Source of the DNA: Ilumatobacteraceae bacterium | GTDB taxonomy: Bacteria; Actinomycetota; Acidimicrobiia; Acidimicrobiales; Ilumatobacteraceae | Assembly: GCA_025463305.1 (NCBI GenBank) | Contig: JAOBWK010000035.1 | Span: forward strand, 46,584-110,583 | Length of the DNA: 64,000 nt | Reading direction: 5' to 3' | Shown: positions 6,358 to 63,007 of the stretch, in pieces | How the letters are laid out: each line of letters begins with the position of its first letter | Position numbering within the stretch: the first letter of the stretch is position 1 | Translations under genes and position numbers: made by a program | Notes under the pieces: model-generated | The model's database searches: none | What the model was told of the DNA's origin: nothing | What the model saw: only the letters and a program-made list of their open reading frames with translations

Positions 6358-7410
6358 ATGGGCATGACCTGGTCCACACGGCAGCGGAACCGGCGGCTCA
6401 ACCGGTGCGGACTGGCAGCGGCGGGCATCCTCGTCGGCGGCCTGGCGTTCAGCGGTTGGCCGGTCGGCGCGGCTGCTGCGGCGGCTCCGGATCGCGTGTC
6501 CGTCACGCTCGCCCCGTCCGACGTGCAACCGGCCATCTCGCGCGTCACGGTGCCGATGCGCACCGGTGCCGCCACGGTGCTCCCGGCCACGACGCCGGTC
6601 ACCACGCCGACGCCGGTCACCGATCCGGCCGCCACCGCGGCGCCGGCCACCGATGCAGCCACCACGGCGCCGGCCACCGATCCGGCCACGACGGTGCCGG
6701 CCGCCGATCCGGCCACGGCGGCCCCGGCCGACCCGCTGCCGCCGATCCCGTCGAACATCGAAGTCGTCGGTGCGTCGTCGGTGCCGGTCCCGGCGGTGGG
6801 CAAGGGCGGCGGCTCGGGCACCAAGATCGTGCAGTTGCGCCTGCTCCAGCTCGGGTTCTGGAACGCCGGCGCGAGCGGCAAGTACGACAACACCACCCAG
6901 CAGGCCGTGATGGCCTTCCAGAAGTACCTCAACCTGCCAGCATCGGGCAAGGTCGACGCCAACACCGCGACCTGGCTGACGGCGCTCGACACCAAGGCCC
7001 ACGGCCTCACCGACACCGGCACGTTGATGGAGGTCGACAAGGGCCACCAGCTGCTGTTCGCCGTCGTCGACGGCAAGACGAACTGGACGTTCAACACCTC
7101 GACCGCCACTGGCAAGACGTACCACGAGGTCGACAAGAACACCCCCGGGCAGTTCCAGGACGGCGTGTCCATCACGCCCGACGGCTTGTGGAAGACCAAC
7201 CGTGAGCGCCCCGTGGGCTGGTGGGAGGGCGACCTCGGCCAGATCTACCGGCCGAAGTACTTCCACGGTGGCGTCGCGATCCACGGTTCGAACAGCATCC
7301 CCAACTACCCGGCGTCGCACGGCTGCGTGCGCCTCTCGGTGCAGGCGATGGACTGGATCTGGGCGAACAACGTCATGCCGCTCGGCATCACCGTCTGGGT
7401 GCACGAGTAG
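6358..7410 (+). CDS. Secreted L,D-transpeptidase with peptidoglycan-binding domain
   Basis: About 350 residues. The start is ATG 6358, giving a basic N-terminus and a hydrophobic signal segment ending near AAAAAAPD; an upstream frame extension to 6199 lacks signal-peptide character. A Thr/Ala/Pro-rich linker with 27-nt repeats follows, then a PG_binding_1 fold (from GTKIVQLRLLQLGFWNAG) and a YkuD catalytic domain with HGG...IHG and the active-site motif SHGCVRL. Enzymes of this family form 3-3 cross-links in peptidoglycan outside the cell. The linker probably lets the catalytic domain reach through the wall. The preceding 218 bp are non-coding. Confidence 0.92.
   Translation: MGMTWSTRQRNRRLNRCGLAAAGILVGGLAFSGWPVGAAAAAAPDRVSVTLAPSDVQPAISRVTVPMRTGAATVLPATTPVTTPTPVTDPAATAAPATDAATTAPATDPATTVPAADPATAAPADPLPPIPSNIEVVGASSVPVPAVGKGGGSGTKIVQLRLLQLGFWNAGASGKYDNTTQQAVMAFQKYLNLPASGKVDANTATWLTALDTKAHGLTDTGTLMEVDKGHQLLFAVVDGKTNWTFNTSTATGKTYHEVDKNTPGQFQDGVSITPDGLWKTNRERPVGWWEGDLGQIYRPKYFHGGVAIHGSNSIPNYPASHGCVRLSVQAMDWIWANNVMPLGITVWVHE
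6616..6726 (+). repeat. 27-bp tandem repeats encoding ATDPATT-type linker
   Basis: Four imperfect units (one of 30 bp at 6616-6645, then 27 bp at 6646, 6673 and 6700) encode (A/V)TD(P/A)A(A/T)T-x-(A/V)P in the L,D-transpeptidase linker. Such in-frame repeats can change copy number and so linker length. Confidence 0.75.
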
Positions 7411-7452
7411 CCGCTCGCCGATCTCGGCCCGGTGCGCGCACCGGCCCGCTGT

Positions 7453-7458
7453 CAGACT
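7453..7458 (+). promoter_or_regulatory. -10 box of lacZ (leaderless type)
   Basis: CAGACT, exactly 6 nt before GTG 7465. This supports GTG 7465 over ATG 7534 as the start. Confidence 0.45.
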
Positions 7459-7464
7459 CGCGAC

Positions 7465-11275
<3,811 letters not shown>

Positions 11276-39743: not shown

Positions 39744-40082
39744 ATGATCCCGGGCGAGATCAGCGGACCCGAGGGCACGCTCGTGCTCAACGCCGGCGCG
39801 ATCGCGGTGGAGATCACCGTGATGAACGCCGCTGACCGGCCGATCCAGGTCGGCTCGCACTACCACTTCGCCGAGTCCAACCCGGGACTGCAGTTCGACC
39901 GCGGTGCGGCATACGGCCGGCGGCTCGACATCCCCGCCGGCACCTCGGTGCGCTTCGAACCCGGCATCGGGCGCACGGTGGCGCTGATCCCGCTGGGTGG
40001 GGCGCGCATCGTCGCCGGGCTGCGCAACCAGGTCGCCGGACCCTTGGACCGACCAGCATCCGCCGAATCGGGAGCGAGCTGA
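39744..40082 (+). CDS. ureB: Urease beta subunit
   Basis: 112 residues from ATG 39744 (TTG 39735 would add three). Contains the typical opening [21 protein letters not shown] and [20 protein letters not shown]. It assembles with UreA and UreC. Its TGA overlaps the ureC ATG by 1 bp (TGATG), so translation is coupled. Confidence 0.96.
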
Positions 40083-41806
40083 TGGTCGAGATCGATCGCG
40101 CCCGCTACCGCCGTCTGTACGGCCCCACCGCCGGCGACCGGGTGCGCCTCGCCGACACCAACCTCGTGATCGAGGTCGAGCGCGACTTGTGCTTCGGCGG
40201 TGAGGAGGCCGTGTTCGGCGGCGGCAAGGTGATCCGCGAGTCGATGGGCCAGTCGACGCGCACGCGCGCCGGCACCGCGACCGAGCCGGGCACGCCCGAC
40301 CTCGTGATCACCGGCGTGGTGATCCTCGACCACTGGGGCATCATCAAGGCCGACATCGGCGTGCGCGACGGCCGCATCGTCGGCATCGGCAAGGCCGGCA
40401 ACCCGGACACGATGGACGGCGTGGACCCGGCGCTCGTCATCGGGCCGTCGACCGAGATCATGTCCGGCAACGGCAAGATCATCACCGCCGGCGCGATCGA
40501 CTGCCACGTGCACCTGATCTGCCCGGAGATCCTCACCGAGGCGCTCGCCTCCGGCATCACCACCGTCGTCGGCGGTGGCACCGGCCCGGCCGACGGTACG
40601 AAGGCCACCACCGTCACCTCCGGTTCGTGGTACCTGGAGCGGATGCACCGCGCCCTCGACGGCTGGCCGATCAACTTCTTGCTCCTCGGCAAGGGCAACA
40701 CGGTGTCGCAGGAGGGGATGTGGGAGCAGTTGCGCGGCGGCGCCGGCGGCTTCAAGCTGCACGAGGACTGGGGCACCACGCCGGCGGTCATCGACGCCTG
40801 CCTCACCGTCGCCGATCAGTCGGGCGTGCAGGTGGCCATCCACACCGACACGTTGAACGAAGCCGGCTTCGTCGAATCGACGATGGCGGCGATCGCCGGA
40901 CGGGCGATCCACACGTACCACACCGAGGGCGCGGGTGGCGGCCACGCGCCCGACATCATCACCGTCGCGTCGTTCGCCAACGTGCTCCCGTCGTCGACCA
41001 ACCCGACCCGTCCGCACACCGTCAACACGCTCGCCGAGCACCTCGACATGCTGATGGTCTGCCACCACCTCAACGCCTCGGTGCCGGAGGACCTCGCCTT
41101 CGCCGAGAGCCGCATCCGTCCGTCGACGATCGCGGCCGAGGACGTGCTCCACGACATGGGTGCGATCTCGATCATCGGCAGCGATGCCCAGGCGATGGGC
41201 CGCGTCGGCGAGGTGATCATGCGCACCTGGCAGACCGCGCACGTGATGAAGGCCCGACGCGGCGCGCTCGAGGGCGACGGCGAGGCCGACAACCTGCGCG
41301 CTCGCCGTTACGTCGCCAAGTACACGATCTGCCCTGCCGTGACGCACGGGCTGCAGGCCGAGGTCGGCTCGATCGAGATCGGCAAGCTCGCCGACCTCGT
41401 GCTCTGGGACCCGCGGTTCTTCGGCGTCCGTGCCCACGCCGTGATCAAGGGCGGGATGATCGCGTTCGCCCAGATGGGCGATGCGAACGCGTCGATACCC
41501 ACCCCCCAGCCGGTGTTCCCGCGACCGATGTTCGGCGCGAGTCCCCGGGTGGCGGCGATGTCGAGCGTGTCGTTCGTGTCGCAGACCGCGCTCGACGACG
41601 GCCTCGCCGAGCGGCTCGGGCTCGTCCGCGAGCTCGTTGCGGTGTCGAGCACGCGATCGCTGACCAAGGCCGACCTGCCGCAGAACGACGCACTGCCGCA
41701 CATCACCGTCGACGCCGACTCCTTCACCGTGCGCATCGACGGCGACGTCATCGACGAGCAACCCGCCACCGAGCTGCCGCTCGCCCAGCGCTACTTCCTG
41801 TTCTGA
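40082..41806 (+). CDS. ureC: Urease alpha (catalytic) subunit
   Basis: 574 residues. Holds the dinickel centre: HVH in [12 protein letters not shown], carbamylated Lys in [13 protein letters not shown], the active-site flap with MVCHHLN, and the metal Asp in [10 protein letters not shown]. All are intact, so the enzyme should be active once nickel is loaded by UreDFG. Not fused to UreA/B. Confidence 0.98.
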
Positions 41807-41810
41807 GCCG

Positions 41811-42494
41811 ATGATGCCGAACGCCGCCCTGCTCCTGCTCGCCGATGGTCGCTTTCCGTCCGGTGGCCACGCCCACTCCGGTGGCGCTGAACCGTCGGTC
41901 GGCGTCGGCGACATCACCGACCTGGCCACGCTGCGCGAGTTCGTCGTCGGCCGGCTGGCGACATCCGGTCTGGTCGATGCGGCGTTCACCGCTGCGGTGT
42001 GCGCGCGGTGTCGTGGTGCCGGCGACATCGAGTGGCGAGCGTTCGAGGCCGAGTACCTCGCCCGCACCGGCTCGCCACGGCTGCGTGCCGCGAGCCGCAC
42101 GCTCGGGCGCCAGCTGCTGCGCGGCGGACGTCGTGCGTTCGCGTCGTCGCGCTACGACGAAGCCATCGCCGCGCTCGGCGGGTCGATCCCGCAGCCGATC
42201 GTGATGGGCATCGTCGCCGCGGCCGCGGGCTGCACCCCGGACGAGGCCGCGCTCTGCGAGCTCCACCACCTCGTCGGCTCGCTCAGCACCGCCGCCGTGC
42301 GACTGCTCGGCCTCGATCCGTTCGAGATCGCCGCGTTCGCTGCACGCCTCGCCCCGGAGCTGGAGCGCTTCGCGGCCGATGCCGCGGCCACCAGCCACCT
42401 CGACCCCGCCGACCTGCCGGCCGAGGTCGCGCTCCTCAACGACGTGCTCGCCGAGCACCACGGAACCTGGGAGGTGAGGCTCTTTGCCTCCTGA
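41811..42494 (+). CDS. ureF: Urease accessory protein UreF
   Basis: 227 residues. With UreD it gates nickel delivery from UreG to apo-urease. Features: [19 protein letters not shown] at the N-terminus and an all-helical body, with the tail [20 protein letters not shown]. The start is ATG 41811 (or 41814), 4 bp after ureC. It overlaps ureG by 11 bp. Confidence 0.93.
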
Positions 42495-43206
42495 TCACTC
42501 GCCCAACACGACCGCGCTCGGCGGCCACACCCATTCGCACGATCACGACCACATGCATGACGAGACGCCGGCGGATCCGCACGGCCGGCCACTGCGGATC
42601 GGCATCGGTGGCCCCGTCGGCAGCGGCAAGACGGCGCTCGTCGCCGCGCTCTGCCGGCTCCTCGCCGAGCGGGTGTCGATGGTGGTCGTCACCAACGACA
42701 TCTTCACCACCGAAGATGCCGAGGCGCTGCGCCGGATGGCGGTGCTGTCCGACGACCGCATCGTGCCCGTCGAGACCGGGGCATGTCCGCACACCGCGAT
42801 CCGCGACGACATCTCCGCCAACCTCGACGCGCTCGAGCAGCTCGAGGCATCGCATTCCGACGTGGAGCTGAGCCTGCTCGAGAGCGGCGGCGACAACCTC
42901 ACCGCGATCTTCTCCCGTGCGCTCGTCGATGAGCAGATCTTCGTCATCGACGTCGCGGGCGGCGACAAGGTGCCGCGCAAGGGCGGCCCTGGCGTCACCA
43001 CCGCCGACCTCCTCGTGATCAACAAGACCGACCTCGCCCCGCTCGTCCACGCCGACCTCGGGGTGATGGACCGCGATGCCAGGGCCCGCCGTGGCGACCT
43101 GCCGATCGCGTTCACCTCCCTGGTCGACCCGGAGGGTGCCCGCGCCGTCGCCGACTGGGTCCTCGGCTGCCTCGACGCCTGGCACGTCCGCCAGCACCAG
43201 CACTGA
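42484..43206 (+). CDS. ureG: Urease accessory GTPase UreG
   Basis: 240 residues if TTG 42484 is the start. A His-rich leader ([15 protein letters not shown]) precedes the GTPase: P-loop [17 protein letters not shown], nickel-binding CPH in [25 protein letters not shown] and NKTDLAPL. It couples GTP hydrolysis to nickel delivery. No ureE lies in the operon, so the His-rich leader may serve as the nickel buffer. The start inside ureF (11-bp overlap) includes the His stretch and is preferred over ATG near 42553. Confidence 0.94.
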
Positions 43207-43223
43207 CGGATCGCCGACGCCTC

Positions 43224-43991
43224 GTGGATGCCACCGCTCGCCTCGTCGTCGCCCGTGACGCGCGCGGCCGAACGGTGCCCACGCACCTGCGCGCCGAGGC
43301 GCCGCTGCTGATCCGCGTCACCGACGAGGACCGCGGCGCCGGCCTGCGGGTCCACCTCGTCGGCGGTGCGGCCGGCCCACTCGCGGGTGACCGCCTGCAG
43401 CTCTCGGTCGATGTCGGTGATCACGCCGATCTCACGGTGCGTTCCGTGGCGGCCTCGCTCGCCCAGCCCGGACGTTCCGGCGCGGCGGGATCGACAGCGT
43501 CGGTGACGGCAACGGTGGCCGCGGACGGTGCGCTCGATTGGTGGCCGGAACCGATCGTGTCGGTGGTCGGCAGCGACCACACCCAGACGACGACGGTCAC
43601 CGTGGCCGCCGGTTCCGGCGATGTCCGCTGGGTCGACGAGATCGTGCTCGGCCGCCACGATCAGCGATCGGGCCGCCTGACGGTTCACCAGCGCTTCGTC
43701 GTCGCCGGCGTTCCCGTCCTGCGCCACACGATGACCATCGACCCCTCGACCGCCGGCATCGGCCGCATCGGCCGGCACCGCGTCGTGGTGACAGGGGTCA
43801 TGGTCGGCGGTGATGCGACCCTCGTGGACGCCGCCTCGATGTCCACGGTCGGCTCCGGCGTTCGCGCCGCGCGGTACTCGATCGCCCCAGCGTGCACGGC
43901 ATGGATCGCGCTCGCCGACGACCTCGACCTCGCCCGTGCGGCACTCGGTGAGCTCGGTCTGCGGCGTGACCGGACGGCGGTGGCGGTGTGA
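43224..43991 (+). CDS. ureD: Urease accessory protein UreD
   Basis: 255 residues from GTG 43224. UreD (UreH) is the scaffold through which nickel passes to UreC. Shows the weakly conserved beta-rich family pattern: AEAPLLIRVT, GGAAGPLAGDRLQLSVDVGD and the central WVDEIVLGRHDQRSG. Last gene of the urease operon; its end is followed at once by the palindromic promoter of the ABC importer. Confidence 0.88.
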   Translation: MDATARLVVARDARGRTVPTHLRAEAPLLIRVTDEDRGAGLRVHLVGGAAGPLAGDRLQLSVDVGDHADLTVRSVAASLAQPGRSGAAGSTASVTATVAADGALDWWPEPIVSVVGSDHTQTTTVTVAAGSGDVRWVDEIVLGRHDQRSGRLTVHQRFVVAGVPVLRHTMTIDPSTAGIGRIGRHRVVVTGVMVGGDATLVDAASMSTVGSGVRAARYSIAPACTAWIALADDLDLARAALGELGLRRDRTAVAV

Positions 43992-44010
43992 GTTTTAAAT
44001 TGACACTCAC
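43988..44010. promoter_or_regulatory. Inverted repeat GTGAGT-N11-ACTCAC over the -35 region
   Basis: Perfect 6-bp arms around an A/T-rich centre, an unusual composition here. It overlaps the last ureD codons and the TTGACA -35 box. Likely operator. Confidence 0.5.
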
Positions 44011-44029
44011 AGACCCGCTGGGTGAGAAT
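44000..44029 (+). promoter_or_regulatory. Sigma-70-type promoter of the ABC importer operon
   Basis: Perfect -35 TTGACA (44000-44005), 18-bp spacer, -10 GAGAAT (44024-44029). One of few promoters here with a consensus -35. Confidence 0.6.
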
Positions 44030-44043
44030 GGTTCGATAGAACC
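44030..44043. promoter_or_regulatory. Palindrome GGTTC-GATA-GAACC at the transcription start
   Basis: Perfect 5-bp arms, located where transcription should begin (about 44036). A repressor site is the simplest reading. Confidence 0.5.
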
Positions 44044-44069
44044 GAACGATCGAGCCCGTTGGGGAAGGG

Positions 44070-44920
<851 letters not shown>

Positions 44921-44924
<4 letters not shown>

Positions 44925-45784
44925 GCGTGCCCATCAGTCGGGTCGACGTGTTCAACCCGGGTACCAAGGCCACCGCCGGCGACCTGCTGGCTGCCGAGCG
45001 CCAGTCGGGTCGCACCCGCTTCGCCAAGACGATGCGCTTCCTGGCGCCGCTCATCGGCCTCGCCGTCTTCTTCCTCGTCTGGCAGTTCGGTGTCGCGATC
45101 TTCGACATCAAGAAGTTCGTGCTGCCGCGGCCGTCGGACATCCTCTCCACCCTGAACGGCAACAAATCGTTCTACGTGCGCAACGCCCGGACCACCGTGT
45201 GGGAGGCGTTCCTCGGCGCGTTCATCGCGTTCGTCATCGCCATGATCGTCGCCACCTTCATGGCCCACTCTCGGTTCATCGAGCGCGCCGTCACGCCGCT
45301 CGCGCTCCTCGTGCAGGTCACCCCGATCGTCGCCTACGCACCCGCCATCGTCGTCTGGCAGGGCTTCGGGCTCCACTCCATCGTCGTGGTCACGTCGTTG
45401 GTGTGCTTCGTGCCGTTCCTGGTCAACGGTGTCACAGGCCTGCGCTCCGTCGATCCGAACCTGATCGAGCTCGCTCGCTCCGTCGACGCCAGCCGGCGCG
45501 AGGTGTTCTTCCGCCTCCGCCTCCCGTCTGCGCTGCCGAACCTGTTCTCCGCGGCGCGCATCGCCGTCGGTCTCGCGCTGATCGGCGCGGTGCTGGGCGA
45601 GTTCTACGCCGGCAGCACCCGCGGTCTCGGCTACGCGATCAAGGTCGCCCAGAACCGCTCGACGCTGCGCGGGCAGCTGTGGGGCTGCATCTACGTCCTC
45701 GGCTTCATCGGCGCCGCGGCCACGCTCATCGTCAACTCCGTCGAGCGTTTTGCGCTCCGCTGGCACAGCAGCCAGCGCACCTGA
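44921..45784 (+). CDS. ABC importer permease
   Basis: 287 residues with six membrane segments and the BPD_transp_1 EAA loop (ELARSVDASRREVFFRLRLP) that docks on the ATPase. The periplasmic motif KFVLPRPSDIL is typical of nitrate/sulfonate/pyrimidine permeases. It overlaps the ATPase gene by 4 bp. The substrate is set by the binding protein encoded next. Confidence 0.92.
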
Positions 45785-48516: not shown

Positions 48517-49590
48517 ATGGCCCTCGACATCACCGCCGGCGTTGCGCCTCGCTCGGCCGGAACACACTATCGACTGGTCGCCACACCCGACACCGTGTTC
48601 TGGGGTTACCTCGACCGGGACGAACCGCCGCGGCTGACGGTGCGCAGCGGGGACACGATCGAGGTCGAGGCGATCACCCACCACGCCGGCGACGCGCCGG
48701 ACCTGCTGATGGACGATGGCATCCGGGCGATCTGGGCGGGCATCACCGAGGGGGTACGCGGGCCGGGGGTGCACATCATGACCGGGCCGATCGCGGTCGA
48801 GGGCGCCGAGGTCGGCGACACGTTGGTGGTGCGCATCCTCGACATGCACCCCCGGCTGCCGCACGGCTCGAACTGCGCGGCGAACTGGGGCCTGCTCTAC
48901 GACACGTTCGGCAAGGAGCGGATCACCATCTACGGGCTCGACGAGATCGGCCCGGACTTCTGCGCCCATGCCCATCCGGAGTTCGCCTTCGACTTCACGG
49001 CCCGCGCGCTCTACGACACCCCCGGGGTCATCAGCGAGCCGGATCCGGCCGCCCGCCAACCGTTCAGCCGGCCGGTCACCGTGCCGGTGCGACCGCACTT
49101 CGGCGTGATGGGCGTCGCTCCGGCCGAGTCCGGCAAGCTGTCGTCGATCCCGCCGGGCGTGTTCGGTGGCAACGTCGACAACTGGCGGGTCGGGCCGGGC
49201 GCGACGATGTGCTACCCGGTGTTCGTTCCCGGTGGGAACCTCTACGTGGGTGATCCGCACTTCGCGCAGGGCGACGGCGAGATCTGCGGCACGGCCATCG
49301 AGGCATCGCTCACCGCGACGATCCAGGTGTCGGTGCTGAAGGGCCTCGGCAACACCTCGCCGCTGCTCGAGACCGACACTCACTGGTACACCCACGGCTT
49401 CGGTGACGACCTCGACGAGGCGATGCGGATGGCGGCCGAGCAGATGCTGTGGCTGATGCAGACCCACCTCGGGCTGAGCGCCGACGACGCGTACTCGCTG
49501 TCGTCGGTGGCGATGGACCTCGGCGTGACCCAGGTGGTCGATGCCCGCCTCGGCTGCCACGCCGGCATCGCCAGAGGGATCTTCGGATGA
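48517..49590 (+). CDS. Acetamidase/formamidase family amidohydrolase
   Basis: 357 residues, FmdA/AmdA family, which hydrolyse formamide, acetamide or related short amides to acid and ammonia. Seen: AITHHAGDAPDLLMDDG, GPGVHIMTGPIAVEGAEVGD, NCAANWG, IPPGVFGGNVDN and the C-terminal VAMDLGVTQVVDARLGCHAG. Start ATG 48517 rather than the longer frame. The stop overlaps the Rieske oxygenase start (ATGA), so the amide is probably an intermediate in the same pathway. Confidence 0.9.
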   Translation: MALDITAGVAPRSAGTHYRLVATPDTVFWGYLDRDEPPRLTVRSGDTIEVEAITHHAGDAPDLLMDDGIRAIWAGITEGVRGPGVHIMTGPIAVEGAEVGDTLVVRILDMHPRLPHGSNCAANWGLLYDTFGKERITIYGLDEIGPDFCAHAHPEFAFDFTARALYDTPGVISEPDPAARQPFSRPVTVPVRPHFGVMGVAPAESGKLSSIPPGVFGGNVDNWRVGPGATMCYPVFVPGGNLYVGDPHFAQGDGEICGTAIEASLTATIQVSVLKGLGNTSPLLETDTHWYTHGFGDDLDEAMRMAAEQMLWLMQTHLGLSADDAYSLSSVAMDLGVTQVVDARLGCHAGIARGIFG

Positions 49591-50765
49591 GCATCCTCAC
49601 CGACGAGCTGCTGACGTCGTTCGACGGCTCGGTGCGCGACGTGTCGACGGCGATCACGATGCCACCGGCGATCTACACCGAGCCCGAGTTCCTCGCCTTC
49701 GAACGCGACGCGCTGTTCGCCCACGAGTGGCTCTGCGTCGGCCGGGCGAGCCGGATCCCGAACGTCGGCGACCACTTCACGGCCACGGTCAACAACGAGC
49801 AGATCATCGTCTCCCGCGCGAAGGACGAAACGATCCACGCGTTCTCGGCGATCTGCCAGCACCGCGGCATGCAGGTGGTGGAGGGCGACGGCAACTGCAG
49901 CAAGTTCACGTGCCCGTACCACCTCTGGAGCTACGACCTCACCGGTCGCCTGCTCGGCGCGCCGGCGATGGAGCGCACCGTCGGGTTCGAGCGCAAGGAC
50001 TTCCCGCTGCCGGCCCTGAAGGTCGAGCTGTGGCAGGGGTTCGTGTTCGTGCACTTCGATCCCGATGCGGCACCGCTGGCGCCGACGCTGGAGTCGTACG
50101 CGCCGTACCTCGCCAACTACGACCTCGAGACGGCGGTGTGCCCGGGCACGTTCACGCTCACCGACCTCCCGTGGAACTGGAAGGTGATGTTCGAGAACTT
50201 CAACGACGGCTACCACGCGAACAAGCTGCACCACACGATCCAGGACTTCTGCCCGAGCGAGCTCGCCGCGTTCCCGGTGCCGTACAGCGAGTCGTCGAAC
50301 GTGATGTTCCGCACCAACGGCTACACCCACATCGACGGGGGGTTCAACGCCACCACCAAGGCGCTGATGCCGATCTTCCCCAAGCTCACCGAGGAGGAGC
50401 GCTGGCGGTCGACGTTCGCGCTGATGCCGCCGTCGCTGTGCTTCGGGACCGCGCCGGATCAGGCGTTCTTCTTCATCGTCCGCCCGAAGACGGCCGACAC
50501 GATCGACGTCGAGATCGGCTACCTGTTCGATCCGTCGGCCCTCGAGCACCCGATGTTCGATCACCTGTTCTCGATCAGCGACGCCGGCGTGCAGGTGTTC
50601 GTCGCCCAGGACCAGGACGCCACCACGAAGGTGCAGCGCGGCATGCACAGCCGGTTCGCCGCTCGCGGTCGCTACTCCTGGCAGGAGGAGACGCACGTCC
50701 AGTTCAACCGCTGGCTGGTGGACCGGTACCGACGACATTGGCCGGTGTGCAAGAGTTCCGTGTGA
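49587..50765 (+). CDS. Rieske ring-hydroxylating oxygenase, alpha subunit
   Basis: 392 residues. N-terminal Rieske domain with CQHRGM and CPYHLWSY ligands; the catalytic domain has the mononuclear iron motif ENFNDGYHANKLHH with the bridging Asp. Such enzymes hydroxylate aromatic rings or demethylate methylamines using electrons from a reductase not encoded here. It is coupled on both sides, to the acetamidase gene and to the RraA-like gene. The substrate cannot be read from sequence. Confidence 0.9.
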   Translation: MSILTDELLTSFDGSVRDVSTAITMPPAIYTEPEFLAFERDALFAHEWLCVGRASRIPNVGDHFTATVNNEQIIVSRAKDETIHAFSAICQHRGMQVVEGDGNCSKFTCPYHLWSYDLTGRLLGAPAMERTVGFERKDFPLPALKVELWQGFVFVHFDPDAAPLAPTLESYAPYLANYDLETAVCPGTFTLTDLPWNWKVMFENFNDGYHANKLHHTIQDFCPSELAAFPVPYSESSNVMFRTNGYTHIDGGFNATTKALMPIFPKLTEEERWRSTFALMPPSLCFGTAPDQAFFFIVRPKTADTIDVEIGYLFDPSALEHPMFDHLFSISDAGVQVFVAQDQDATTKVQRGMHSRFAARGRYSWQEETHVQFNRWLVDRYRRHWPVCKSSV

Positions 50766-56404: not shown

Positions 56405-57430
56405 ATGAACGAGATCCTCTGCGGGAACAGCGCTTTCGAGGGTGCGTGGTACGCCGTGGCGCGCAGTGTCGAGGTCGGCGCGACGCCGTCGCGGATCACC
56501 TTGCTGTCGCGCGACGTGGTGCTCTACCGCAGCGCGAGCGGTGCAGTCGTGGCCGCGCCCGATCGCTGCCCGCACCGCGAGGCGCCGCTGTCCAAGGGCA
56601 CGGTGCAGGCCGGATGCCTGGTCTGCCCGTACCACGGCTGGACGTTCGGCGACGACGGCCGCTGCGTCGACGTGCCGTCGGCGAACGATGGCGTGCCCCC
56701 GCCGCCCCGTGCCCACCTGCACACGTACCACGCCACCGAGCGGTACGGGCTGGTGTGGGTCTGCCTGGCCGACGAGCCGGCGGCGCCCATCCCGAACATC
56801 GCCCAGGAGCACGACCACACGTTCCGACGGATCAACACCGAGGTCGAGATCTGGCGCACCTCGGCCACCCGGATGGTCGACAACTTCCTCGACATCACCC
56901 ACTTCCCGTACGTGCACGTGGGCACGTTCGGGCGGGCGCAGGACACCAAGGCCCCGAAGATCGAGCTGGTCGCGCTCGACGACGACTGGTTCGGCTACGA
57001 GTACGAGGTCCTCGCCAACAACAGCGATCTCGGCACGCTCGCCAGCGGCCAGTCGAGCGGCGTCGTGGAGCGGGCGATGGCGACGGGCTTCAACCTGCCG
57101 TTCAGCGTGCGCAGCGACATCCACTACGGCACCGGTCTGTCGCACACCATCCTGCTGCTCAGCACGCCCATCGACGACGTCACGTCGTACTTCACCTTCG
57201 TGATCTGGCGCAACGACGACTTCTCCGTCTCCGCCGAAGAGGTCATCCGCTTCGACCTCGCGATCGGTGCCGAGGACAAGCGGATGCTGGAGATGCTCGA
57301 CGGCGTGCTGCCGCTCGACCAGACCACGCTCGTCAGCGTGCAGGCCGACAAGTGCTCGGTCGAGTGGCGGCGCCGGTTGATCGAGTGGATGAGCCGCCCG
57401 CCGGCGGTCTCGCTCGAACGCGCGGGCTGA
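56405..57430 (+). CDS. Rieske oxygenase, vanillate-demethylase/KshA-like
   Basis: 341 residues. Rieske ligands in RCPHREAPLSKG and CPYHGWTF; mononuclear iron ligands in DNFLDITHFPYVH. It lacks the beta-subunit interface of true dioxygenases and resembles single-subunit oxygenases that demethylate or hydroxylate. No reductase gene is nearby. Transcribed divergently from the amidohydrolase and convergent, with adjacent stops, with the HAL-like gene. Confidence 0.9.
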   Translation: MNEILCGNSAFEGAWYAVARSVEVGATPSRITLLSRDVVLYRSASGAVVAAPDRCPHREAPLSKGTVQAGCLVCPYHGWTFGDDGRCVDVPSANDGVPPPPRAHLHTYHATERYGLVWVCLADEPAAPIPNIAQEHDHTFRRINTEVEIWRTSATRMVDNFLDITHFPYVHVGTFGRAQDTKAPKIELVALDDDWFGYEYEVLANNSDLGTLASGQSSGVVERAMATGFNLPFSVRSDIHYGTGLSHTILLLSTPIDDVTSYFTFVIWRNDDFSVSAEEVIRFDLAIGAEDKRMLEMLDGVLPLDQTTLVSVQADKCSVEWRRRLIEWMSRPPAVSLERAG

Positions 57431-58945
57431 CTACAGCGCCGCGATGAGGGCGTCGAGGTCCGGGCCGTAGGAACGGTCGCCGGTGTAGCGCGACACGACC
57501 GCGCGCACGCGGTCGTGCAACACGGCGACGTCGTGGCCGACGGCTTCGCCACGCTCGTCGATCGCCGCGGCGGCGACGAACACCTCGTGGGCGAGCAGCG
57601 CGTGGCACAGGCGCATCGCGTCGCCCAGCCGTTCGAGCGCCGGGAACACCATCGACATCGCGTCCTCCTGGCCGAACGAGCTGTCGGCCTGCATCACGCT
57701 GACCGGCGCGGCCAGCATCCGCAGCGACGCGCCGTACGCGACGGCAGCCTTGTGCACGGTGATCAGCCCGGCGTCGAGACCCGGCTCGGCGGCGAGCTGC
57801 CGGGTGAGCCCCGTCGCCCGCTCGTCGAGCAGGCGGTAGAGCCGCTTCTCGGCCAGGTTGCCGAGGTGCACGATGGCCAGCGTGGCGGCTTCGACGCGAG
57901 CCGCCAACGCGGCACCGTGGAAGTTGCCGCCGCTGACCAGCTCACCGAACGGCTCCACCGTGCCGTCGTCCGGGGCGGTGAAGAACGCCGGGTTGTCGCC
58001 GTTCGCGCGGAGGTCGTCGAGCGCGGTGGCACGCAACCGCTGCACGGCTTCGAGCGCGACGGCGTGCACCTGCGGCGTGATCCGGTACGACACCGGCGCC
58101 TGGCGCGGTTGGCGGGTCACGGCTGATCCGGCGGTGTGGCGACGCAACGCAGCGCAGACGACGGCGACGTGCGGATCGGGGTTGAGGCCGGCCGCGCGCT
58201 CGCTGTACGGCTGCAGCGGCGCGGCCATCGCCTCGATGCTCGCCGCGGCGACGAGGTCGGCCGTGGCGAGCAGACCGACCGCGCGACGCGACAGGTGCCA
58301 GGCGAGCGCCGGGCCGACGCCCGTGCCGCTGATCAGCGACAAGCCCTCCTTCGACTGCGGCGCGTACGGGGCGAGGCCCTGCGCGGCGTGCCACGCCGCG
58401 CCCGACTCCGTCGTGCCGTCGGGCATGTGCACGAAGCCGTCGCCGATCAACGGCTGCACGGCATGCGACAGCGGGATGATCTCGCCCGCCATCCCGAACC
58501 CGTGCCCGGGCACGGCCGGCTGGATGCCGCGGTTGAGGCGCTCGACGATGATGGCGCACAGCTCGGCCGACACACCCGAGTGCCCGTCGAGGAACTGCAC
58601 CAACTTCGCCAGCAGCGCACCGCGTCCGACGCCGACGTCGAGCAACGGCCCAGAGCCGGAGGCCCGGCCGAGCAGCGTGTGCCGGGGAAGCGCGGCGCGC
58701 TGCTCCGTCGTGAGGTCGAGCGTCGACATCGCGCCGAGGCCCGTCGTCACGCCGTAGCAGATGACACCGGTGTCGATCAGCGCCAGGAACGCCCGCCGCG
58801 TCGCCGCCAGCCGGGCGACGGCGCCGTGAGCGAGCGCGACGTGCGCTCCGCCGTAGACGATGGCCTCGTACGCATCGGCGGTGAGGTCCCTGGCCGTCTC
58901 GAGGATGATCGGCGGATCGGTGATGATGGGATCGTGAGCAGTCAG
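57431..58945 (-). CDS. HAL/PAL-fold lyase lacking the MIO triad
   Basis: About 504 residues, normal for histidine/phenylalanine ammonia-lyases. Family signs: Y64 in YGVTTGLGAMST, QSKEGLSLISGT near 197-208, R288, SGGNFHG at 338-344 and GQED at 425-428. The MIO precursor Ala-Ser-Gly is replaced: FG-MAG-EIIPLSH, with M152-A153-G154, so the serine that cyclises is missing. The usual NGT is SGT and the YSLR tyrosine is V285. MIO cannot form, so direct ammonia elimination by the classic route is unlikely; a substrate with a better leaving group, such as a trimethylammonium amino acid, is plausible. No ATG/GTG/TTG fits the start; CTG 58945 follows CATACT by 6 nt. Confidence 0.85.
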   Translation of the reverse strand: MTAHDPIITDPPIILETARDLTADAYEAIVYGGAHVALAHGAVARLAATRRAFLALIDTGVICYGVTTGLGAMSTLDLTTEQRAALPRHTLLGRASGSGPLLDVGVGRGALLAKLVQFLDGHSGVSAELCAIIVERLNRGIQPAVPGHGFGMAGEIIPLSHAVQPLIGDGFVHMPDGTTESGAAWHAAQGLAPYAPQSKEGLSLISGTGVGPALAWHLSRRAVGLLATADLVAAASIEAMAAPLQPYSERAAGLNPDPHVAVVCAALRRHTAGSAVTRQPRQAPVSYRITPQVHAVALEAVQRLRATALDDLRANGDNPAFFTAPDDGTVEPFGELVSGGNFHGAALAARVEAATLAIVHLGNLAEKRLYRLLDERATGLTRQLAAEPGLDAGLITVHKAAVAYGASLRMLAAPVSVMQADSSFGQEDAMSMVFPALERLGDAMRLCHALLAHEVFVAAAAIDERGEAVGHDVAVLHDRVRAVVSRYTGDRSYGPDLDALIAAL

Positions 58946-58951
58946 GAGCCC

Positions 58952-58957
58952 AGTATG
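58952..58957 (-). promoter_or_regulatory. -10 box of the HAL-like gene
   Basis: CATACT on the minus strand, exactly 6 nt before CTG 58945. It overlaps the ATG of the divergent cyclodeaminase-like gene (58955), so the two genes cannot easily be transcribed independently. Confidence 0.35.
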
Positions 58958-59968
58958 ACCGAAGCGCCCGCACCGATCTCGTTGACGTACCTCAACGCGG
59001 CTGCCGTCGCTGCGTGTGCGCTCACCGACGACGAGATCCTCGACGCGATCACCACGTCGCTCGCCGCGCAGGGCAACGGCCGCACGGTGATCGAGCCTCG
59101 GGTGCACCTGATCCCCGGCGGTGGCGTGCAGGGCCACTTCAACGTGCTGCGCGGTGTGGTGCATCCCCTCGGCCTGGCGGGGGTGAAGGTCGTCGGCGAC
59201 TTCGTCGACAACTACACCCGCGGGCTGCCGTCGGAGATGGCGCTGCTCGACCTGTTCGATCCCGGCACCGGGATGCCGATCGCGATCCTCAACGCGACCG
59301 CGATCACCGACATGCGCACCGGTGCGGTGACCGCCATCGGCGCCCGCCACCTGGCGAGGCCGGGGTCGAAGGTGCTCGGCCACATCGGCGCTCGCGGCAC
59401 GGCGTACTGGAACGTCCGCCTGCTCGACCACCTCTTCGACTTCGACGAGATCCGTGTGCATTCGCGTCGGCCGGAGAGCCGAAGCGCGTTCGCCGCTCGG
59501 CTCACCGCCGACCTCGGCAAGCCGATCGTGGTCACCGACGACTGGGAGTCGTGCGTGCGCGGCGCCGACATCGTGGTCGAGGCATCGCGCCTGCCCGAGC
59601 CGACGCCGATGCTGCGCACCGAGTGGATCCAGCCCGGCGCGCTCGTGATCCCGTACGGCACGATGAGCGCCGTCGAGCTGAGCCTCACCGACGTCATGGA
59701 CAAGGTCGTGGTCGACGACTGGGGCCAGTGCCGCAAGGGCCTGCCGTTCGGCGCGCTGCGCGCCCACGTCGACTCCGATCGGCTGACCGAGGACAACCTC
59801 CACGCCGAGCTCGGCCAGATCGTTGCCGGCCTCCGCCCCGGCCGCGAGTCCGACGACGAGACGATCCTCCTCTGGCACCGCGGTCTGAGCCTCAGCGACA
59901 TCGCCCTCGGCCACGCCCTGCTCGCCAAGGCGGCGCAGATCGGTGTCGGCCAGCAGCTGGAGTTCTGA
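58955..59968 (+). CDS. Ornithine cyclodeaminase/mu-crystallin family protein
   Basis: 337 residues from ATG 58955 with an AGGAG Shine-Dalgarno. Rossmann fold with GHIGARGTAYWNVRLL in place of the GxGxQA loop and a substrate region LPSEMALLDLFDPGTGMPIA. Family members are imine reductases, cyclodeaminases or ketimine reductases that use NAD(P). It starts 9 bp from the HAL-like gene on the opposite strand. A role in reducing or removing nitrogen from the lyase product or precursor is inferred. Confidence 0.88.
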   Translation: MTEAPAPISLTYLNAAAVAACALTDDEILDAITTSLAAQGNGRTVIEPRVHLIPGGGVQGHFNVLRGVVHPLGLAGVKVVGDFVDNYTRGLPSEMALLDLFDPGTGMPIAILNATAITDMRTGAVTAIGARHLARPGSKVLGHIGARGTAYWNVRLLDHLFDFDEIRVHSRRPESRSAFAARLTADLGKPIVVTDDWESCVRGADIVVEASRLPEPTPMLRTEWIQPGALVIPYGTMSAVELSLTDVMDKVVVDDWGQCRKGLPFGALRAHVDSDRLTEDNLHAELGQIVAGLRPGRESDDETILLWHRGLSLSDIALGHALLAKAAQIGVGQQLEF

Positions 59969-59982
59969 GCACCGCCGCGGGC

Positions 59983-60894
59983 TCAGATGAAGTGCGCGGC
60001 CACCTCGTCGCGGAAGCGCTCGATGGCCTCGCGGCGCTGGGCCGCTGAGGCGCCGAGGTTGAAGTCGGGCAGTGCGAGCTCGTCGACACCCCCATCGGCG
60101 TACGCGCCGACGAGGTCGACGATCTCCGCGCTCGACCCGATGAGGGATCGGCCGGCAGGCGCCGCGGCCCGCACCTTGTCGGCCGTCGCCGCGTCGTCGG
60201 CGAAGAACAGCAGCGCCTGCGCGGAACGGCGGATGGCCGCGAAGTCGGCGTCGACCGCAGCGCACGCGGTCTCGAACTCGGCGGTCTTCGCGGCCACCGT
60301 GGTGGGATCGCCCCACGTGTTCCACTCGGTGGCGTAGCGGGCCGTCGCGCGCATCATCCGCTGACCGCTCGTGCCGACGAGGATCGGCAGCGGGCTCTGC
60401 ACCGGCTTGGGCTCGAACGGCGCGTCGGTGAGCGTGTACCACTGCCCGGCGAAGCTCGCCCGAGCATCGTCGAGCAGATGGCGGATCACCTGCAGCGCCT
60501 CGATGAAGTGCGTCACCCGCTCGGCCGGCGCGGGCAGCCGGAAGCCGTAGCCGGCGTGCTCGTTGACCTGCCAACCGGCGCCGAGGCCGAGCACGACGCG
60601 TCCGCCGCTGATCTGGTCGACGGTGGCGGCGCGCTTGGCGAGCACGACCGGATGGTGGATGGTCACCGGCGACACCATCGACGTCAGACGCAGGCGGGGC
60701 ACGGCAGCCGCGACGGCGGCGAGCACGCTCCAGCACTCGAGCGCGTCACCGTCGCCGGGTGTGTCGTCGGCCGTCTGCGACATGAAGTGGTCTGCGTACC
60801 AGAGGCTGTGCCAGCCCGTGGCCTCGGCGTAGGTGGCGAGGTCGAGCATCTCCGACCACGGGCGCGAGTTCGATGTCCAGAGCGAGAACTTCAT
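59983..60894 (-). CDS. LLM-class flavin/F420-dependent oxidoreductase
   Basis: 303 residues of the luciferase-like TIM barrel: FSLWTSNSRPWSEMLDLATY, WYADHFM, ISGGRVVLGLGAGWQVNEH and PILVGTSGQRMMRATARY. Actinobacterial members of this subfamily commonly use F420, others FMN. Start ATG 60894 follows TAGGTT by 6 nt. Convergent with the cyclodeaminase-like gene. Likely a dehydrogenation, reduction or mono-oxygenation step; which one is open. Confidence 0.9.
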   Translation of the reverse strand: MKFSLWTSNSRPWSEMLDLATYAEATGWHSLWYADHFMSQTADDTPGDGDALECWSVLAAVAAAVPRLRLTSMVSPVTIHHPVVLAKRAATVDQISGGRVVLGLGAGWQVNEHAGYGFRLPAPAERVTHFIEALQVIRHLLDDARASFAGQWYTLTDAPFEPKPVQSPLPILVGTSGQRMMRATARYATEWNTWGDPTTVAAKTAEFETACAAVDADFAAIRRSAQALLFFADDAATADKVRAAAPAGRSLIGSSAEIVDLVGAYADGGVDELALPDFNLGASAAQRREAIERFRDEVAAHFI

Positions 60895-61813: not shown

Positions 61814-63007
61814 ATGTCACAGGTCGATTTCGAGTACTTCGATTGCGACAACCACTTCTACGAGGCGCTCGACGCCTTCACCCGCTACCTCGATCCGAAG
61901 ATCGGCAAGCGGGCGATGACGTGGGGCACCGTCGGCGGCAAGCAGCGCCTGCTCGTCGGCGAGAAGATCAACAAGTTCATCCCGAACCCGACGTTCGATC
62001 CGGTGTCCAAGCCGGGTGCGCTCGACGAGTACTTCCGTGGCCGCAACCCGAAGGGCGAGGACACCCGCGAGCTGTTCGGCGAGCTCGACCGGATGGCCGA
62101 TCATCCCGAGTACCGCGACCGCGACGCCCGTCTGAAGCTGATGGACGAGCAGGGCATGGCCGCGGCCATCTTCCTGCCCACCCTCGGCGTCGGCATGGAG
62201 CAGGCGCTCAAGCACGACCTGCCCGCGATGAAGGCCGCGTTCACGGCGTTCAACCGCTGGATGAACGAGGACTGGGGCTTCGCCTACCAGGAGCGGATCT
62301 TCGCCGCGCCGTACATGTCGCTGCTCGACGTCGACCACGCCGTGTCGGAGCTGGAGTACGCGCTCGACAACGATGCACGCTTCATCCTCGTGATGCCCGG
62401 ACCCCTCGTCACCTCACGCGGCGGCGCCTCGCCGTCGGACCACGAGCTCGATCCGTTCTGGGCACGGGTCAACGAGGCCGGCGTCACGGTGGTCGTCCAC
62501 GGTGGCGACAGCGCGTACAGCGCGTACAAGAAGGATTGGGGCGAGACGGGCCTCACCGAGGCGTTCCGTCAGAACCCGTTCGGCGCGCTGCTGTCGGCCA
62601 ACGTCACCCAGGACACCTTCGCCAACTTCCTCGCCCACGGCCTCTTCCACCGCTTCCCGAACCTGCGCATGGCCGCGGTCGAGACCGGTTCCGACTGGGT
62701 GTTCCACCTCCACGAGAAGCTGAAGAAGTCGTTCGGCCAGACGCCGCAGGCCTACCCCGAGGATCCTCGGGTCACGTTCAAGCGTCACGTGTGGATCTCG
62801 CCGTACTACGAGGACGAACTGGGCGCGCTCCGCGAGCTGCTCGGTGCCGACCGCGTCCTGATGGGCTCGGACTACCCCCACGCCGAGGGCCTCGCCGATC
62901 CGTCGTCGTACATCAAGGACCTCCGCAACTTCAACTACAGCGACGACGACAGTCTCAAGGTGATGCGCGACAACGGGTTCGCGCTGTCGAAGCGCCAGCC
63001 CGCGTGA
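61814..63007 (+). CDS. Amidohydrolase_2 family (ACMSD-like) protein
   Basis: 397 residues. TIM-barrel metal enzyme with the N-terminal FDCDNHFYEALDAF, internal VTVVVHGGDSAYSAY and the metal Asp in LMGSDYPHAEGLADPSSY. The family covers decarboxylases (ACMSD, gamma-resorcylate) and hydrolases. Members of this branch are frequent in actinobacterial degradation clusters. ATG 61814 has a GAAAGGGG ribosome site. It may decarboxylate or hydrolyse the late pathway product. Confidence 0.88.
   Translation: MSQVDFEYFDCDNHFYEALDAFTRYLDPKIGKRAMTWGTVGGKQRLLVGEKINKFIPNPTFDPVSKPGALDEYFRGRNPKGEDTRELFGELDRMADHPEYRDRDARLKLMDEQGMAAAIFLPTLGVGMEQALKHDLPAMKAAFTAFNRWMNEDWGFAYQERIFAAPYMSLLDVDHAVSELEYALDNDARFILVMPGPLVTSRGGASPSDHELDPFWARVNEAGVTVVVHGGDSAYSAYKKDWGETGLTEAFRQNPFGALLSANVTQDTFANFLAHGLFHRFPNLRMAAVETGSDWVFHLHEKLKKSFGQTPQAYPEDPRVTFKRHVWISPYYEDELGALRELLGADRVLMGSDYPHAEGLADPSSYIKDLRNFNYSDDDSLKVMRDNGFALSKRQPA

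Follow-up and report, generated by a model that had tools for sequence, protein, structure and literature searches.

In lyases of the histidine ammonia-lyase (HAL) fold, an Ala-Ser-Gly (ASG) triad forms the MIO cofactor, which lets ammonia leave from a substrate whose β proton is non-acidic. A quaternary amine is an easier leaving group than ammonia. Ergothionase is reported to lack MIO (PMC13405746), and the structures of the Treponema denticola ergothionase (PDB 6s7j/6s7q) have the PF00221 fold without the MIO triad, as does the lyase described here. A bacterial catabolic pathway for ergothioneine sulfonate has been published with Agrobacterium radiobacter as the organism (Yan, Huang and Zhang, ACS Catal 2022, 12:4825; PMC13405746, PMC9967237); by title and organism alone, it concerns the same kind of substrate as we propose for this lyase. 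Our literature searches found no paper on the MIO-less clades I and II introduced below, and none on an ornithine cyclodeaminase (OCD) partner of ergothionase.

The lyase gene lies in a 64,000-nt stretch of Ilumatobacteraceae DNA, which we refer to as the window. It occupies 57431..58945 on the minus strand (504 codons), where the frame is open from 58945 down to a stop at 57431; the plus-strand reading of these coordinates contains a stop. PF00221 covers residues 21–481, nearly the full length, with 316 bits, and the hutH equivalog model TIGR01225 gives 286 bits, far below its curated cut-off of 539. The start is uncertain. Around the expected position, the frame has no ATG, GTG or TTG upstream of Met73, and it must be assumed that translation begins at a rare start codon, either the CTG at 58945 or a different one, or that there is an error, possibly of assembly, at this 5′ end. 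Eleven close homologues start 8 to 15 residues ahead of a conserved DLTADAYE-like stretch, with one or two exceptions. The public gene call (P0003, 432 aa) is without the N-terminal part that holds Tyr64. NG86 dN/dS was ~ 0.31 against the homologue in locus L001 and ~ 0.26 against that in L002, which indicates that the gene is under purifying selection.

A preliminary description of this DNA had reported Met-Ala-Gly in place of ASG, and this is what the minus-strand frame encodes at 58484..58492 (Met152-Ala153-Gly154). Alignment of the loop with HAL-type rows (GHG-FGMAGEIIP versus QQGSLGASGDLAP) revealed two further changes, a one-residue deletion before the triad and a replacement of Asp by Glu after it. 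As far as can be read from the sequence, the M-A-G loop offers no Ser from which MIO could form. The other residues named in that description are also as it had stated. The second catalytic Tyr is Val285 (PVSYR), and Tyr64, Arg288, NFHG and QED (Gln426-Glu427) are retained, so that the likeness to HutH extends to the fold, Tyr64 (HAL Tyr53), Arg288 (Arg283), Gln426-Glu427 and the NFH motif. Besides the missing ASG and the low score, the differences from HutH are His83 to Arg94 and Tyr280 to Val285; the HAL numbers Tyr53, His83, Tyr280 and Arg283 are those that we take to belong to the aligned positions. Aligned to HAL, Arg94 (codon 58664..58666, minus strand) and Lys399 (57749..57751, minus strand; both computed from the frame) are new residues at predicted pocket positions.

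We then examined these residues across related proteins. When 5.8 billion proteins were searched and the 7991 candidates with the largest number of shared words scored, 211 homologues were returned, and 120 of them are listed. ASG was present in three of these 120 (P0117, P0119 and P0122). The residue counts that follow refer to the 117 MIO-less rows among the matches listed, with the window lyase included and P0003, its public copy, excluded. Arg occupied the HAL His83 position in all 111 non-gap rows, Lys the 399 position and Gln the 383 position in 116 of 116 each, and Glu the 155 position in 112 of 114. At the Tyr280 position we found Val (92), Ile (20), Leu (4) and Ala (1). The Ser that the preliminary description had noted at the Asn position is real (Ser206, LISGT) but is not common to the family, as this position holds Asn in 51 rows, Ala in 29, Ser in 24 and another residue or a gap in the remainder; Arg94, Lys399 and Gln383 are the more constant features. 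Three simple residue criteria separate the MIO-less lyases from HAL: ASG is absent, the His83 position holds Arg and position 399 holds Lys. Many of the relatives listed bear the name histidine ammonia-lyase although the catalytic center of that enzyme is lost.

The MIO-less rows fall into clade I, to which the window lyase belongs (loop mostly GMAGEIIP; source names including Acidimicrobiales, Ilumatobacteraceae, Azospirillum, Lacibacterium and Rhizobiales), and clade II (loop mostly G-C/S/A/T-AGE; its few source names are Amycolatopsis and Sciscionella). Six clade I/II rows (P0012, P0105, P0113, P0114, P0116 and P0118) have an M/T/S-Ser-Gly triad and keep the other signature residues; a MIO-like ring is possible in these six because the middle residue is Ser rather than Ala. 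In the tree, the window clade was supported at 100/99, and clades I and II formed their own side at 100/100, outside an ergothionase group supported at 95/97. A wider union of the Lys-bearing rows was not rejected (AU p 0.318). The clade I profile had a single match at 1e-110 among 296 genomes of the class, in G001, and none in IMG/VR; in plasmids, tblastn searches with lyases of either clade found all best places at < 60% identity, and the rows inspected closely were canonical HAL or other MIO-less lineages. None of eight lyases scanned against NCBIfam scored above any cut-off, and an ergothionase model was absent from the matches.

Several further PF00221 proteins were seen along the way. 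One MIO-less lineage, in L011, L012, L013, L014, L016 and L018, has the triad deleted (GSxGY---L) and keeps Ser-His; it adjoins ABC transporter genes and hut-type genes in L013, L014 and L016. A Rhizobium tropici protein (L015:4956-6455) with a GQGGAGE loop and without Lys399 sits on a very long branch, and the translations around it look by eye like UbiD, LLM and acyl-CoA dehydrogenase frames. Another long-branch protein without ASG (GSVGV-SDL) is at L039:14724-16229. In L037, a second MIO-less protein (6688-8550; GSIGT-GDL, no Lys399) and a cysteine-dioxygenase-family gene (8554-9480) are next to the clade II lyase.

The preliminary description had also pointed to ergothionase. In favor of this likeness, the Treponema denticola enzyme has Lys at the Lys399-equivalent position, its loop is shortened to the same extent, and the Tyr280 position is non-Tyr in both (Leu in 6s7j, Val in the window lyase). 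Among solved folds, ergothionase ranked first by Z score (42.1, rmsd 2.0), narrowly ahead of the next (40.9, rmsd 2.9). It was located in the PDB set by a Rhizobium-type profile (A4), and queries with two other MIO-less proteins matched HALs first. Membership of the ergothionase clade found no support: clades I and II stand apart in the tree, identity to the Treponema enzyme is 24%, and the HAL His83 position, which is His in both HAL and Treponema ergothionase, is Arg in the window clade.

The window lyase travels together with an OCD/mu-crystallin family protein. This partner (PF02423, 337 aa) is encoded divergently at 58955..59968 on the plus strand, 9 bases from the lyase frame. The family includes ketimine and iminosuccinate reductases and is large: all 8000 scored candidates matched. 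The window OCD reached 174 bits against PF02423 (cut-off 24) and remained below the cut-off of every matched NCBIfam model (13 families). L001 and L002 likewise have a divergent OCD next to the lyase (85% and 77%, respectively), so that with the window it is found in three of three clade I loci; the L002 frame is broken in the assembly, since its match comes as two overlapping pieces. Our clade II sample consisted of 11 loci from 396 Actinomycetota genomes. Six of the fetched stretches contained an OCD homologue 57–64% identical (L025, L038, L039, L040, L043 and L044). In the other five, OCD did not adjoin the lyase; nine of the 11 genomes have it, and in those of L041, L045 and L046 it is on a different contig next to an OsmF-like binding protein, in two of the three together with a betaine-type ATPase and a hutI-like gene. 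With close OCD defined as E up to 1e-85 (weakest listed, 4e-114), the lyase was present in 12 of the 396 genomes, close OCD in 13 and both in 10 (hypergeometric p 8e-16, kinship ignored). The two lyase genomes without close OCD are G406 and G594. Of the three genomes counted for OCD only, G324 carries part of a lyase where a contig ends, next to the OCD region; in G445, OCD is directly followed by an ergothionase-type lyase, and in G480 the 14-kb stretch around OCD holds no lyase. Among the matches listed, six lyase/OCD row pairs share a longest-contig size (110583, the contig of the window, 3817, 6837, 7299, 20991 and 117751), which suggests that the members of each pair lie on the same contig.

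We next asked what surrounds clade II lyases. L040 and L043 have the same gene order: OCD, lyase, betaine-family ATPase, two permeases and an OsmF-like binding protein. Seven of the 11 loci carried a betaine-family ABC ATPase with 61% or more identity to that of L040; the proV model was above cut-off in two of five ATPases scanned (L040 and L039), and the OsmF model gave 102–120 bits, below its cut-off of 400, in four of four binding proteins. Genes for histidine utilization are nearby as well. HutU adjoins the lyase in L037, L044, L045 and L046 and hutF does so in L039; the surroundings of the L037 lyase also hold a hutI-like gene, a betaine-type ATPase, a YeiH-type match and a gene of the cysteine-dioxygenase family. 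TauE exporters are present in L040 and L043, and tblastn found no sulfite-type exporter in most of the 11 loci.

Plasmid relatives of the OCD extend the comparison across phyla. The window OCD matched 846 plasmid records by tblastn, 60 of which are listed, and we chose 13 loci (L059–L071) by rank and variety; several of these are near-copies from Rhizobium. A MIO-less PF00221 lyase was at most 9 kb from OCD in 11 of the 13. In L064 the lyase (L088) is ~ 9 kb from OCD, with hutU, hutG, hutH and hutI, and in the fetched L067 locus there was no MIO-less lyase near OCD. A glycine-betaine binding protein was matched in seven loci (L059, L061, L062, L063, L068, L070 and L071), and six (L059, L060, L064, L068, L070 and L071) have "sulfate exporter" genes of the YeiH type. 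In L069, a canonical hutU (967 bits, below both thiourocanate cut-offs) lies between OCD and the lyase.

Lyases of the ergothionase type adjoin OCD genes in Rhizobium, Sinorhizobium, Azospirillum, Polaromonas, Paraburkholderia, Paracoccus and Streptomyces. They are MIO-less, keep the Lys, mostly have Arg at the His83 position and often have betaine ABC genes nearby; they group with Treponema ergothionase at 95/97, and their loop is GSIGA-xDL whereas that of the window lyase is GMAGEI. The link between Arg94 and OCD is not strict: lyases that keep His at this position (L060, L069 and L088) are accompanied by an OCD too. The nearest relatives of the two window proteins conflict. For the OCD, the partners of ergothionase-type lyases are nearer (69–79% identity) than those of clade II (56–64%), whereas the lyase is closer to clade II (36–44%) than to the ergothionase type (25–30%; 25% for L069). 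Partner exchange or transfer between phyla may therefore have happened, and reading a substrate across clades is risky. The type of OCD partner adds to the ergothionase likeness. With the betaine and hut surroundings of OCD, the Arg94/Lys399 signature and the position of the clade apart from both HAL and ergothionase, it extends the preliminary description.

We interpret the window protein as a putative 1,2-elimination lyase of HAL fold that works without a cofactor. Our best reading, which we hold tentatively and at not quite an even chance, is that it splits trimethylamine off a histidine betaine, with ergothioneine sulfonate as the likeliest substrate, and that the OCD restores urocanate for the Hut pathway. 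Betaine import would be the entry step. The substrate would be ergothioneine sulfonate or another C2-oxidized ergothioneine; Arg288 would grip its carboxylate and Tyr64 would abstract the β proton, while Arg94 and Lys399 could hold and polarize the 2-substituted, probably sulfonated, imidazole ring. Being a good leaving group, trimethylamine would then exit without MIO. The OCD partner might deliver hydride to imidazole C2 in a ketimine-reductase-type step, expelling sulfite and yielding urocanate, and the sulfite would be exported. We favor the sulfonate because Arg replaces His, because exporters are present in some loci and because an ergothioneine sulfonate pathway has been published. This best reading is consistent with the loop, Lys and Leu/Val changes and the top fold by Z in common with Treponema ergothionase, with the OCD partnership, and with the betaine ABC, hut and exporter genes near relatives. 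Against it are the position of the clade outside the ergothionase group, Arg where ergothionase has His, the sparse context in the window, the two of 12 lyase genomes without close OCD, the five of 11 clade II stretches in which OCD does not adjoin the lyase, the OCDs that go with His-type lyases, and the rarity of exporters in clade II loci. The betaine-type substrate class proposed in the preliminary description draws its support from the neighbors of relatives (ATPase in seven of 11 loci, binding protein in seven of 13); in the window, tblastn matched no betaine binding protein, no exporter of the YeiH or TauE type and none of HutU, HutI and HutC.

Alternatively, the lyase may remove trimethylamine from a plain betaine, hercynine or ergothioneine, to give urocanate or thiourocanate directly, and the OCD would have another role in the same catabolic unit. 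A urocanate product would fit the canonical hutU and the thiourocanate hydratase scan, in which none of the 396 Actinomycetota genomes was above cut-off, and the betaine ABC transporters near relatives suit it equally. We nevertheless consider a plain betaine unlikely, though far from negligible: Arg94 replaces the imidazole-site His that HAL and Treponema ergothionase keep, and the tight OCD partnership and the exporters stay unexplained. It is less likely again that the substrate is some other acidic or aromatic betaine or onium compound and that the hut linkage is incidental. The pocket Arg and Lys would suit an anionic side chain, a homocysteine S-methyltransferase-family gene adjoins the lyase in L041 (every score below model cut-offs), and the window has two Rieske oxygenase genes. 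However, hut genes adjoin the lyase or its OCD partner in several separate loci, and all 12 lyase genomes matched a hutU-like model, compared with 127 of the full 396 (hypergeometric 8e-7, kinship not taken into account). A non-betaine substrate, aspartate-like or an N-substituted amino acid whose β proton is acidic enough without MIO, is improbable. Enzymes of the aspartase/fumarase fold do work without MIO, Arg is at the side-chain site and the window OCD has some matches to the iminosuccinate reductase model, albeit far below cut-off (92.6 of 500 bits); the betaine ABC and hut surroundings of relatives speak against it.

An inactive remnant or a regulatory protein on the lyase fold, which the lost triad and the uncertain start could suggest, is more improbable still, given dN/dS of ~ 0.3, the retained base Tyr, Arg288 and Glu427, and the invariant Arg94 and Lys399. 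The earlier view of a changed reaction rather than decay is supported by a conserved family with invariant residues of its own, by dN/dS < 1 and by the separate ASG-bearing HAL that each of the related genomes G001 and G002 carries. That the protein is a canonical HAL with a sequencing error at the triad is scarcely credible: "histidine ammonia-lyase" is the source name of many homologues among the matches listed, but the comparison with HutH by alignment and tree, which the preliminary description had proposed, finds 117 rows (window included) that lack ASG and the window clade separate, the hutH score is 286 against 539, and G001 and G002 have their own HAL.

Returning to the trimethylamine-lyase reading, a wider form of it, which we regard as possible but rather doubtful, is that clades I and II form another deep lineage of MIO-free trimethylamine-lyases, a second one, with Arg where HAL and Treponema ergothionase have His, and that they belong to an undescribed OCD-dependent actinobacterial and alphaproteobacterial route from oxidized histidine betaine to urocanate. 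In that route, elimination would come first and the C2 substituent would then be lost reductively, which would amount to aromatic desulfonation by a ketimine-reductase fold. The conserved partner and neighbors yield a concrete substrate hypothesis. If true, it would show where trimethylamine is released by environmental bacteria and where these recover sulfur and nitrogen from ergothioneine and the products of its oxidation, and it would add a cofactor-free C–N lyase on a scaffold in use for biocatalysis.

The window itself shows just the lyase/OCD pair plus an F420-type LLM oxidoreductase gene (59983..60894, minus strand). The latter has a 73% match over 56 aa at the L001 contig edge and is a possible, weakly supported third member; it had no match at E 1e-8 to the LLM pairs of L061–L063. 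We did not count the Rieske, amidohydrolase, VOC and other window genes as members, since they have no close match in L002 or L001, the exception being a 27% match in L002 for the amidohydrolase at 61814-63007. Absence from L001 is a weak test because this locus is only 6.8 kb. The two Rieske genes near the lyase/OCD pair are at 49584-50738 and 56405-57430; one is of the Ring_hydroxyl_A type, with glycine betaine monooxygenase as best NCBIfam match (134 bits, cut-off 670), and the other is of the VanA type. Further away, 40082-45784 holds genes for urease alpha and UreG, and after them those for the ATPase and permease of an ABC transporter; the ATPase at 44 kb (39%) adjoins the urease genes. 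The matches of this ABC transporter to SaoA/SaoP and taurine-type models are below their cut-offs.
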